Of a stretch of 64,000 nt of DNA, positions 44,196 to 46,860 are shown piece after piece. The stretch is from Clostridia bacterium (GTDB lineage Bacteria; Bacillota; Clostridia; Christensenellales; Borkfalkiaceae). Position numbers and translations under genes: made by a program. The notes below the pieces were generated by a model. That model was given only the letters and a program-made list of their open reading frames with translations. It had not been told where the DNA came from and made no database searches. The DNA is taken from contig JAFUJR010000018.1 of NCBI GenBank assembly GCA_017468085.1, positions 1 through 64,000 on the forward strand. Reading direction: 5' to 3'. Numbering within the stretch: position 1 is the stretch's first letter; each line of letters opens with the position of its first letter.

Positions 44196-44323
44196 GGGAT
44201 AAAATAAGAGTAAATTTAAAAAATATCCACAAAAAATACGAAGGGACGGAAGAATATATTCTTCCGTCTTTTCCATTGTCGAAAAAAATTTTGATTTTTG
44301 GCAAAAAATTTTTAAAAAACCTA

Positions 44324-44351
44324 TTGACAAACGCCGAATTTTTGGTATAAT
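44324..44351 (+). promoter_or_regulatory. Promoter of the candidate large RNA
   Basis: TTGACA (44324-44329), 16-bp spacer, TATAAT (44346-44351), both hexamers perfect. No ordinary gene follows. Between mreB and this promoter (44196-44323) I see only a weak TTCCGTC/GACGGAAG-type hairpin near 44246-44275. Confidence 0.85.
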
Positions 44352-44522
44352 AAAGGTACAAAAAGAAAGAACGAAACAAAAAATGTTAAATTCTTTCAAA
44401 AAATGGGGAAAACACCGATGAACACATAGTAAGTAGCCGAGGGGAATCGGCAAGCCGCCGTAGGGATACGGCACAAGGAAAACGCCGTAATAGGGAAGCG
44501 GCGAAAAAATGGAAAGGAGGGT

Positions 44523-44552
44523 ATGAAAAGCGATGATTCCTTCCCAGAGTGA
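44523..44552 (+). CDS. Tiny ORF with strong ribosome site (9 aa)
   Basis: MKSDDSFPE, preceded by AAAGGAGGGT. Its stop overlaps a GTG that opens another short frame. It may be a real micropeptide, or the ribosome-site-like sequence may be a structural part of the RNA. Confidence 0.25.
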   Translation: MKSDDSFPE

Positions 44553-44809
44553 GGCAAGCACTTAAAAATTGCCGAAAAAAGTGAGGGGAAACACTTAAAA
44601 AGGCGACCAAGGTAGGCATTCGTTTGCAAACCCAGAACGGGGCAAATGGAAGATTGACGAAACTTCGGTAGGCGCTCGGCTGTCGGAAAGCGACGGGGGA
44701 GGGAACGAATAAGCACGGTAGGCGTAAGAAATTTGACGAAATTTCAGCGAATGTCGGAAGAGGCGTTTTTGAAAGAAAACGGAAAAGAAGGAACAAGGAG
44801 GAACACAGT

Positions 44810-44869
44810 ATGAGATGCGTAACTCCAAAAAGCAAAACTGTTAAAAACGAGGATACTCCAACGGGCTAG
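44810..44869 (+). CDS. Tiny ORF with strong ribosome site (19 aa)
   Basis: MRCVTPKSKTVKNEDTPTG, preceded by AAGGAGG eight bases before the ATG. No similarity recognised. It lies within the candidate structured RNA. Confidence 0.3.
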   Translation: MRCVTPKSKTVKNEDTPTG

Positions 44870-44923
44870 GTATTCCCACCGACGGGAGGTCGGAGAGAGT
44901 ACTAAAAAAGGAGGTAAATTGCA

Positions 44924-44965
44924 ATGATTTATATCCTTACCGTGAGGTATTTCAACAAGAAATAA
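44924..44965 (+). CDS. Tiny ORF with strong ribosome site (13 aa)
   Basis: MIYILTVRYFNKK, preceded by AAAAAAGGAGGTAAATTGCA. The ribosome-site block recurs in diverged form 60 bp later before another tiny ORF (44984-45013, MNEMNEGVR). Confidence 0.3.
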   Translation: MIYILTVRYFNKK

Positions 44966-45128
44966 AAAAAGAGGTATAGTCCAATGAACGAAATGAACGA
45001 GGGCGTTCGTTAAATAAGAAGTAACCTGCATATATAAGCGGACGAAAGGTTCGGCAAGCGACGTATGGCTCGCACCCAACAGGTGAAAATAAAAAAGGGA
45101 ACGCCCATACAACTGAATACGAAAAAAA

Positions 45129-45161
45129 CACCCCTGCTATAAACGCAGGGGTTTAATTTTT
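45129..45161 (+). terminator. Terminator of the candidate large RNA
   Basis: ACCCCTGC / GCAGGGGT with a seven-base loop, then TTTAATTTTT. Confidence 0.8.
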
Positions 45162-45164
45162 GTT

Positions 45165-45290
45165 GCCTACGAAATGCGGCGCGATACTTCGTCGCGCTTT
45201 GACAACCTTCGGTTACGTACGTCTATGTACGCGCCCTCAGGTTTTCCTCGCGCTCCTTGTCTGGCTTGCATTTCCCTACGGCAGGGCGTT
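45165..45290. repeat. Palindromic intercistronic repeat, divergent copy 4
   Basis: The core CGGTTACGTAC...TATGTACGCGCCCTC is almost identical to copy 3. The arms differ (TGCCTACGAAATGCGGCGC at left, GGCTTGCATTTCCCTACGGC at right) yet remain complementary to each other, which suggests the fold is what is kept. Confidence 0.7.
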
Positions 45291-45319
45291 AACATTGCAG
45301 TATATTTTACTAAATACCT

Positions 45320-45340
45320 CACCCATGTACGGGTTGAAAT
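45320..45340 (+). repeat. Dispersed ~20-bp motif, variant B
   Basis: CACCCATGTACGGGTTGAAA, one mismatch from the copy at 39431. Confidence 0.7.
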
Positions 45341-45373
45341 AAAAAAGCGGCGAAAATTCGCCGCTTAATTTTT
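45341..45373. terminator. Bidirectional terminator near glyQS
   Basis: AAGCGGCG / CGCCGCTT stem with A run at left and AATTTTT at right. About 85 bp of unremarkable sequence separates it from the glyQS stop. Confidence 0.75.
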
Positions 45374-45459
45374 GTTTGAAACCGCTTACTCATACCGCCT
45401 ACACGCCCTATCAAAGAACGAACGGCTGGTGGTAAAACATAGTCAAGGCAGTGCCTTGC

Positions 45460-46860
45460 TTAGAATTCGATTTTTTCTTCGATATACTTGATCGCGTCTT
45501 CGACGGACAAGCGTACTTGCTGCATCGTATCGCGGTCTCGTACCGTTACGGTGTCGTCTTCAAGCGTATCGAAGTCTACGGTTACGCAGAAAGGCGTACC
45601 GATTTCATCTTGACGGCGGTAACGCTTACCGATAGAACCCGTTACGTCGTAGGTCGCGGGGAATTTCTTCATCATCTTCGCGTAAATCTCGTCCGCTTTT
45701 TCCGAAAGGTTTTTCTGCAAAGGCAGAACCGCGCACTTATAAGGCGCAAGGAAAGGATGCAAACGGAGTACGGTGCGCACGTCGTTCTTTTCCGCGTCCA
45801 CCACTTCTTCGTCGTATGCGTCGGTGAGGAAAGCAAGCACTACGCGGTCTGCGCCGAGCGAAGGTTCGATAACGTAAGGTACGTAGCGTTCGTTGGTTAC
45901 GGGGTCAAGATAGGTGATGGGCTTGCCGCATTCTTTGGCGTGTTGCGAAAGGTCGTAATCCGTTCTGTCCGCAATACCCCAAAGTTCGCCCCAACCGAAC
46001 GCAAATTTGTATTCGAAGTCCGTCGTCGCCTTAGAATAGAAGCAAAGCTCTTCGGGCGAGTGGTCGCGAAGGTGCAAGTTTTCTTCCTTCATGCCGAGCG
46101 ACAAAAGCCAATCGCGGCAGAAATCCTTCCAGTACGCAAACCATTCCAAATCCGTGCCGGGCTTACAGAAGAATTCAAGCTCCATTTGCTCGAATTCACG
46201 GGTACGGAAAGTGAAGTTGCCGGGCGTGATTTCGTTACGGAAGGACTTACCGATTTGACCGATACCGAAAGGCACGCGAAGGCGGGTGGAACGCTGTACG
46301 TTTTCAAAGTTCACGAAAATACCCTGCGCCGTTTCGGGACGGAGGTATACGGTGTTCGCGCTGTCCTCGGTTACGCCTTGGAAGGTCTTAAACATTAAGT
46401 TGAACTTACGGATAGAGGTGAAATCGGAGTTGCCGCAGATAGGACAAACGATTTTATGTTCGACGATGAACGCTTCTAATGCGTCGTTGTCCATGCTTTC
46501 TACCTTGACGTCCATGCCCTTTTTCGCGACGTAGTTTTCTACAAGGTTATCCGCGCGGTGGCGAGCCTTACAGCTCTTGCAGTCCATAAGGGGGTCGGAA
46601 AAGCCGCCGAGGTGGCCCGACGCCTGCCAAGTGCGCGTGTTCATCAAAATGGCGCAATCTACGCCCGTGTTGTGGGGATTTTCTTGAATAAATTTCTTCC
46701 ACCAAGCTTTCTTGACGTTGTTTTTCAGTTCCACGCCCAAAGGACCGTAGTCCCACGTGTTTGCAAGACCGCCGTAAATCTCACTGCCGGGGAATATAAA
46801 CCCTCTGTTTTTGCAAAGGGAAACGAGTTTTTCCATGGTTACCGCTCTTTTTTCAGCCAT
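45460..46860 (-). CDS. glyQS: Glycyl-tRNA synthetase, single-chain type
   Basis: This is a 466-residue class II synthetase of the alpha-dimer type. [23 protein letters not shown] opens the catalytic core. CKSC and CPICG form a zinc-binding insertion. [25 protein letters not shown] holds motif 2 and [13 protein letters not shown] motif 3, followed by the anticodon domain. AAGGAG precedes the ATG. It has its own promoter and no T-box. Confidence 0.98.

Follow-up and report, generated by a model that had tools for sequence, protein, structure and literature searches.

The sequence evidence indicates that the region between mreB and glyQS in the window (the whole stretch of 64,000 nucleotides of Clostridia DNA analysed here) encodes a real structured RNA with a promoter and a terminator of its own, that is, one freestanding unit. 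Our minimal claim is of a covarying RNA class of ~360-850 nt that carries micro-ORFs and appears to fit no known family, which would extend the short list of large bacterial RNAs. Beyond this, we consider the chances about evenly balanced that it is a dual-function RNA that stands alone, is probably abundant and folds in a manner coupled to translation. This translation-gated reading draws on the covarying helices, the minimal size of the first ORF (ORF1), the constraint on the fourth (ORF4), the overlap of the fifth (ORF5) with a long-range stem (P0) and the near-constant spacing from start codon to helix.

All parts of the RNA unit given here with coordinates lie on the forward strand. The unit opens with a sigma-70 consensus promoter with an extended -10 element (44324..44351; TTGACA-16-TATAAT with TG ahead of the -10) that matches at 12 of 12 positions, is conserved through the family and forms invariant columns in alignment A1 (5' region, mixed genera, 48 rows, 44 of them from the window's genus). 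It closes with an intrinsic terminator hairpin (45130..45152), a stem followed by a T-rich tail; terminator-like sites number 7 in the whole stretch against 1.9 expected. Both boundaries had been named in the original prediction, and both held. The RNA of 44356-45160 folds to -221.9 kcal/mol, compared to a mean of -174.8 kcal/mol (sd 6.2) in dinucleotide shuffles, none of the 20 being as good (z = -7.56). Its approximate length ranges from 362 to 854 nt across 47 genus loci, which also differ, between 54 and 236 aa, in the longest frame free of stops on either strand. Three antisense ORFs in the region (122-149 aa) had no match to any Pfam family, and antisense protein genes were rejected on this ground. 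The earlier statement that the region holds no ordinary gene is correct for long protein genes but overlooks conserved micro-ORFs with ribosome-binding sites, which start at 44418 (a weak site), 44533, 44810, 44924 and 44984 (ORF1 to ORF5). Their Shine-Dalgarno sites lie in purine-rich linkers at ordinary spacing to the AUGs, and the most constant features through the family are the start codons with ribosome-binding sites and the stop codons a few codons on. The start sites were not clearly open in predicted folds, with mean unpaired probabilities of 0.43-0.61 (0.61 for ORF1, 0.57 for ORF2, 0.49 for ORF3, 0.43 for ORF4 and 0.56 for ORF5) against 0.51 overall. The middle region, absent from short versions of the RNA, holds three GGTAGGC repeats (44611..44723) at 44611, 44667 and 44717, as first noticed; none of 2000 mononucleotide shuffles had three copies.

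A DNA search returned a single copy in the window's own genome and matches in 49 of the 57 genus genomes, the window's own included. The 49th genus match (G044, E 7.8e-4, 28 nt) was a chance match inside an ordinary gene (L059) and was discounted, leaving 48. A sequence model built on the first 109 positions (R1) recognised the RNA in two more genomes (G001 and G045), which brings the plan to 50 of 57; in the other 7 neither the DNA search nor R1 gave a confirmed copy. R1 also returned a second, weaker match in the window's own genome. At E up to 1e-3, R1 matched 210 of 301 genomes of the family carrying the RNA, which we take to be Borkfalkiaceae, with strong matches in the window's genus (g1), g43 and g45; many of the weaker matches elsewhere in the family may be of the promoter only. 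In the order, 21 of 297 genomes matched at E up to 1e-5, 20 of them from the family, and the only one outside it (G520) was an ordinary gene's promoter. In the class, 4 of 291 genomes matched at E up to 1e-6, and the sole match outside the family (G785) spans positions 1-42 only and was rejected as restricted to promoter positions. No full copy was found outside the family among the genomes searched. The 5' end is shared by named records, among them Candidatus Gallimonas and Candidatus Coproplasma, which, by our reading of the shared ORFs, would correspond to g45 and g43, respectively.

For the locus sets, we dropped from the first pass those that were unrelated, promoter-only or cut (L022, L026-L028, L053 and L058-L061) and also the other-genus loci L021 and L023-L025, so that 48 genus loci were counted. 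L026-L028 are short unrelated DNA matches, and L022, from another family of the same order, shares the promoter and then continues into a different purine-rich stretch that lacks these ORFs. Matches to the promoter pattern at L171, L169 and L201, and likewise in the viral contig L209, look like other strong promoters. A second set comprised the 44 of 81 distinct stretches that passed a filter for ORF4 and ORF5 (32 of 40 in one subset), with three (L105, L151 and L204) from the window's genus and 41 outside the genus set.

In flanks of ~1.5 kb around the 48 genus loci, mreB lay upstream on the same strand at 30 loci and downstream on the opposite strand at 3, glyQS lay downstream on the opposite strand at 8 and upstream on the same strand at 1, and neither gene was near at 11. 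Pfam matches confirmed MreB and a class II tRNA synthetase with an anticodon-binding domain in the window, and elsewhere identified a GerAC-type protein at a g45 locus and a sodium/hydrogen exchanger at a g43 locus. The mreB-glyQS setting first described is, hence, general only in part: mreB upstream on the same strand is the majority arrangement in the genus, but the neighbours are different in other genera. A series of short ORFs with a terminator hairpin after it does resemble a leader-peptide attenuator, and the next long downstream ORF is co-directional at some loci (L165, L148 and L170), as a leader or attenuator of a neighbouring gene would require. We find this explanation barely credible, because the downstream glyQS of the window is convergent, glyQS (8 of 48) and mreB (3 of 48) lie on the opposite strand wherever they are downstream, with no co-directional mreB or glyQS downstream in the 48 loci, the next long ORF is on the opposite strand at L158, L137 and L160, and the neighbours differ between genera. 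An attenuator of glyQS or of another gene was rejected on the orientations of the downstream genes that were typed. Such varied neighbours and orientations indicate a free-standing RNA that does not attenuate any fixed gene. Downstream of the terminator, the spacer of the window (45175-45330) and that of L047 have an element in common between species, GGTTACGTACGTCTAT, with the look of a dispersed intergenic repeat.

Comparison of the homologous loci supported hairpins I-III, P1 and P0 by covariation, in agreement with the large structured RNA that had been proposed. Hairpin I (44365..44397) has a GAAAG/CTTTC outer stem, an AACA/TGTT inner stem and an A-rich loop. Hairpin II (44436..44451, loop AGGGGAA) begins at +19 from the ORF1 AUG, and in hairpin III (44457..44472, loop AGGGAT) all five pairs have changed on both sides. 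P1 pairs ACCTG (45024..45028) with CAGGT (45080..45084) within the long-range stem, where the original prediction had placed it, and covaries over 38 homologues. Because alignments A2 (38 of 47 segments), A3 (34 of 47) and A4 (41 of 46 rows, with L054 and L055 set aside first) omit divergent or longer rows judged hard to align, the shares of paired cells are raised: 96.2% for hairpin I (41 chosen rows; double-sided changes in 15 cells, a number reached by 0/500 shuffles; 25-53% paired in slid versions), 95.5% for hairpins II and III together (double-sided changes in 40 cells, reached by 0/500 shuffles; no more than 42% paired in slid versions) and 95.8% for P1 (A2; double-sided changes in 38 cells, reached by 0/500 shuffles). 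The count of P1 pairs with double changes was, by itself, unexceptional (92/500). A secondary structure derived from the 48-row mixed-genus A1 contained no pairs, and the chosen genus rows do support hairpin I. The GGGA-type loops of the prediction are real and are kept in hairpin III, where the loop nearly always contains GGGA, and are looser in hairpin II, several loops of which have no GGA. These loops suggested a sponge like CsrB or CsrC, a candidate we rejected because CsrA (PF02599) was found in 0 of 37 genus genomes; the same search was positive in 3 of 14 control genomes, E. coli included. Another rejected idea was that AUUCCU at the ORF2 start pairs with AGGGAU, the loop of hairpin III; this is possible in the window, but, by eye, several loci keep the loop without the partner.

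ORF1 (44418..44429) reads M-N-T-stop behind a weak Shine-Dalgarno site in the window and consists of Met plus one or two residues and a stop in 47 of the 48 genus loci (L048 lacks it). In 46 of the 47 anchored loci, two or three codons precede the first in-frame stop; at L043, the one that differs, the AUG counted is an upstream one, and the proper ORF1 of that locus conforms. The stop codon varies (TAA in 28, TAG in 13 and TGA in 6), as does its position, and frames +1 and +2 have no early-stop peak apart from the ATGA overlap. Loci of the second set encode Met plus 1-4 aa in 39 of 44 cases. The second codon is NAC at 39 of the 47 anchored ORF1 starts (CAC 20, AAC 15, GAC 3 and TAC 1) and at all 47 ORF5 starts (AAC 42, TAC 4 and CAC 1). 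NAC codons are read by queuosine-type tRNAs.

Shielding of the RNA would be the most economical role for so small an ORF. A two-codon mini-ORF described in the leader of axe-txe acts in cis, possibly through protection of the mRNA (PMC8708949). As described there, that start-stop minigene, which ORF1 resembles, regulates a gene of its own operon (PMC8708949), whereas ORF1 sits in a freestanding RNA and, unlike the minigene, is followed by a hairpin at near-constant distance. The axe-txe precedent would also suit a stable regulatory RNA that acts in trans, with ORF1 and hairpin I as a 5' stabiliser at which a ribosome shields the transcript from nucleases and with GGG loops or the end motif, CAACTGAATA, pairing to targets. 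The conservation of the AGGGA loops and of the end motif is consistent with this explanation, as is the way the early stops largely spare hairpins II and III. It leaves ORF4, ORF5 and the placement of P0 within ORF5 unexplained, and we hold it to be unlikely.

The overlap of coding and structure is most direct at ORF5 (44984..45013; MNEMNEGVR), codons 6-9 of which form the 5' arm of P0. ORF5 was found by pattern in 47 of 48 loci, and the one that fails the pattern (L015) has it with a weaker site. It encodes 8-14 aa (9-14 aa where the pattern matches) and has a stop that differs in codon and in place; in the 35 loci matching the patterns of both ORFs, its start follows ORF4 by 58-64 nt. The P0 5' arm, GGGCGTTC (45001..45008), begins at +18 from the ORF5 AUG and pairs with GAACGCCC (45099..45106) in an exact 8-bp helix, just where the long-range stem had been reported. 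Arms from the same locus paired better than arms swapped between the 47 loci, both in energy (-11.76 versus -7.9 kcal/mol; 0/10000 permutations) and in contiguous helix length (7.30 versus 5.48 bp; 0/5000). There are 41 distinct P0 helices, of at least 6 bp in 43 of the 47 loci and of 4-5 bp in the other 4, and among those 43 the pair at nucleotide +21 is C-G in 16, G-C in 14 and A-U in 13. In the second set, a test anchored on the end motif with a pattern written after viewing the sequences, and leaving out 3 genus loci and 6 of 41 other loci in which the motif was not found, gave 6.66 bp for own arms versus 5.38 bp for swapped ones (0/10000), with at least 6 bp in 27 of 35 loci and 3-5 bp in 8. 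The unanchored energy test on the 41 second-set loci outside the genus set had 3 of 10000 permutations as good. The end motif itself (45110..45119), between P0 and the terminator, is the near-invariant end of A2 (38 rows).

A strong fold and covariation, along with ORF2, ORF3 and ORF5 peptides that look unconstrained, could also be reconciled with a purely non-coding structured RNA in which AGGAGG and AUG serve as untranslated RNA motifs such as contacts to 16S rRNA. This seems to us very improbable, because in-frame stops persist even though they differ in codon and position, normally spaced start sites recur across genera with different sequences and ORF4 is constrained in three genera. The idea that the RNA is simply non-coding also conflicts with the constancy of the micro-ORFs across the family and with a P0 helix built partly from a reading frame, and it is not supported. 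ORF1 and ORF5 both seem to be kept for the place of their start and stop; ORF5 might be kept only as RNA, although its stop shifts in codon and place.

The distance from start codon to the next helix was also near-constant for ORF1 and ORF5 in the window's genus. As loci within a genus share ancestry, the spacing regularities that follow amount to few independent observations, not dozens: the P0 5' arm starts at +18 (22 loci), +17 (18), +19 (6) or elsewhere (1) from the ORF5 AUG (n = 47), and 30 of the 35 anchored second-set loci have it at +17 to +21, including loci with a 3' domain of 248-294 nt; in 40 of 46 loci, the first base of hairpin II is +17 to +20 from the ORF1 AUG; 16 of 19 minimal ORFs of g43-type loci have their best local hairpin (CCGCGAAAGCGG, CCCCGAAAGGGG or similar) beginning at +15/+16; and 7 of 11 of the related g110 RNAs have, from +16 on, a unit of the form CCTCC...GGAGG or CATCC...GGATG. 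The g43 hairpin appears unrelated in sequence yet repeats the spacing of ORF1 and its hairpin. Tandem modules of start-stop ORF and hairpin are present in L114 (g110) and L106 (g43). In g45 there was no consistent hairpin at +16 to +20 after ORF1. Among 31 ordinary genes of the window, used as control, hairpins fell at +17 to +20 in 5, and there was no peak. For an initiating 30S complex, a toeprint at +16 is reported (PMC3858243), and the P0 start within ORF5 (+17 to +19 in 46 of 47 loci) falls just past this edge of the initiating ribosome. Two ORFs placed about one ribosome's reach before a conserved stem suggest that ribosomes are built into the working of the RNA.

The three remaining ORFs all have an AGGAGG Shine-Dalgarno site. 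ORF2 (44533..44565; MIPSQSEAST, site at 44515) and ORF3 (44810..44869; MRCVTPKSKTVKNEDTPTG) matched their peptide patterns in 32 and 29 of the 48 loci, respectively, and are additions of long RNA versions. ORF4 (44924..44965; MIYILTVRYFNKK) did so in 36 of 48, is mostly 10-19 aa long and usually ends in or beside the ORF5 Shine-Dalgarno site. Peptide constraint was assessed by a column-permutation test of codon pairs. For ORF4 this gave 58/2000 in the window's genus, 111/4000 in g45 (with one g43 row, L129, sorted into this set by spacing) and 12/4000 in g43, and a Fisher combination over the three genera, worked by hand and ignoring the relatedness of rows, came to ~2e-4. There was no constraint on ORF2 (1712/2000, window's genus) or on ORF5 (392/2000 in the window's genus, 1089/4000 in g45 and 1533/4000 in g43), and that on ORF3 was not significant (738/2000, window's genus). 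The tests provide moderate support for peptide-level constraint on ORF4 in three genera, and ORF4 may make a functional peptide. The contrast with ORF5 suggests that ORF4 may act as a peptide while ORF1 and ORF5 are kept for position.

These results raise the question of whether the RNA is a short polycistronic messenger, with micropeptides, above all that of ORF4, as its product and with helices that set ORF expression and protect the message. Consensus Shine-Dalgarno sites and starts would be expected of such a messenger, as would the ORF4 constraint in all three genera. At many g45 loci (L092, L093, L095, L096, L098, L099, L101, L102, L117, L131 and others), moreover, the ORF4 start codon lies in the 3' arm of a CATATCG/CGATATG-like hairpin with the Shine-Dalgarno site in its loop. 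Yet an ORF1 of only 2-3 residues in the genus, the lack of peptide constraint on ORF5 and ORF2, and the conservation of P0, the 3' domain and the end motif beyond the last ORF make a messenger rather unlikely. Separately, L029 and L036 have an apparent recent duplication of a MIPY ORF module in the middle of the RNA, which in L036 also includes the start-stop ORF and hairpins, and this suggests that long versions arise by module duplication.

In the translation-gated reading that we favor, a ribosome initiating at ORF1 or ORF5 would rest its leading edge against the helix ahead. At ORF1 it would end after one or two peptide bonds, occupying and protecting the 5' region, and the early stop would largely spare hairpins II and III. 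At ORF5 the stop lies just past the arm, and to get there the ribosome would have to melt P0, a helix predicted to close the 3' domain next to the terminator hairpin and CAACTGAATA. Because reading of ORF5 would melt P0, the state of this helix would follow ORF5 translation: open during reading, and closed if ribosomes were scarce or held at the start. P0 would in this way gate both the 3' domain and the end motif. The RNA could then report ribosome or initiation status to a putative partner (RNA or protein) through the 3' domain or the GGG-loop hairpins, and ORF4 would contribute a short basic peptide. More tentatively, and less likely than not, the RNA could be an abundant ribosome-docking device of a new kind made of modules (Shine-Dalgarno site, AUG, near stop and a helix at the leading edge of the initiating ribosome) that parks or counts ribosomes, with ORF5 and P0 converting occupancy into a change of fold; the tandem modules of L106 and L114 would be multi-site versions of it. 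If the coupling to translation is true, a family of gut Clostridia spends a consensus promoter on an RNA with ribosome placement as a structural part, and two- or three-codon ORFs are kept for the location of their start and stop and not for the encoded product. Such an RNA would offer a natural system to study how bacterial RNAs sense initiation or ribosome supply and would warn that annotation drops functional ORFs far under any length cut-off.

Rfam did not assign the RNA to a class. At gathering score the only match in the whole window was a tRNA elsewhere, with nothing in the region, and at E up to 10 the interval 44200-45480 yielded 24 weak hits, of which the best had E 0.17; every one fell far short of its gathering score, and none was to a large RNA class. 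ROOL, GOLLD, OLE and raiA, the known large classes to which the region had been tentatively referred, were not among the matches to E 10, and that assignment was discarded. A scan of 10 homologous loci to E 0.1 had one match at gathering score, a tRNA next to L114, and the three remaining matches were to small RNAs. We found no description of the RNA in the literature searched, a search largely outside subscription papers. The bacterial RNAs ROOL, GOLLD, OLE and the raiA motif are described as freestanding, several hundred nt long and elaborately structured with covariation, with functions that are unclear or only recently found (PMC12286853, PMC11706538), and ROOL and GOLLD are reported in phages and prophages, often near tRNAs (PMC12286853). 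The window RNA resembles the four in being freestanding, several hundred nt long and structured with covariation, but differs from ROOL and GOLLD in its varied chromosomal neighbours and conserved micro-ORFs. Dual-function RNAs such as RNAIII and SgrS are regulatory RNAs that also code for a short peptide. The window RNA would be similar to them in this combination, and it has a structure supported by covariation, as expected of the RNAIII type; unlike them, it has three to five ORFs, one of them of 2-3 codons and one overlapping a long-range stem. A short ORF in an RNA first predicted to be non-coding has also been described for the Downstream-peptide motif/yfr6, an Rfam-numbered cyanobacterial element in the 5' UTR of an ORF of 17-100 aa (PMC2864571). 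The window RNA likewise carries short ORFs in an RNA presumed non-coding, but this motif was not among its Rfam matches.

Other loci also drew our attention. The g110 loci (L110, L111, L114 and L115) hold long purine-rich RNAs with the same promoter type, a three-codon ORF and CCTCC..GGAGG units, in which, by eye, a GGAAC loop could pair with a downstream GTTCC as a pseudoknot; they have a different tail in common, ATCAAGTGTAAGTTTC or near it, close to the terminator. L022 has the same type of promoter followed by ~700 nt of purine-rich sequence and a strong terminator (~740 nt from the promoter), without these micro-ORFs, and its transcript may be another unexplained large RNA. At L171 (6406-7650), three tandem copies of a similar strong promoter with hairpins and repeated blocks behind them, unrelated to the window RNA, perhaps form a type I toxin-antitoxin array.
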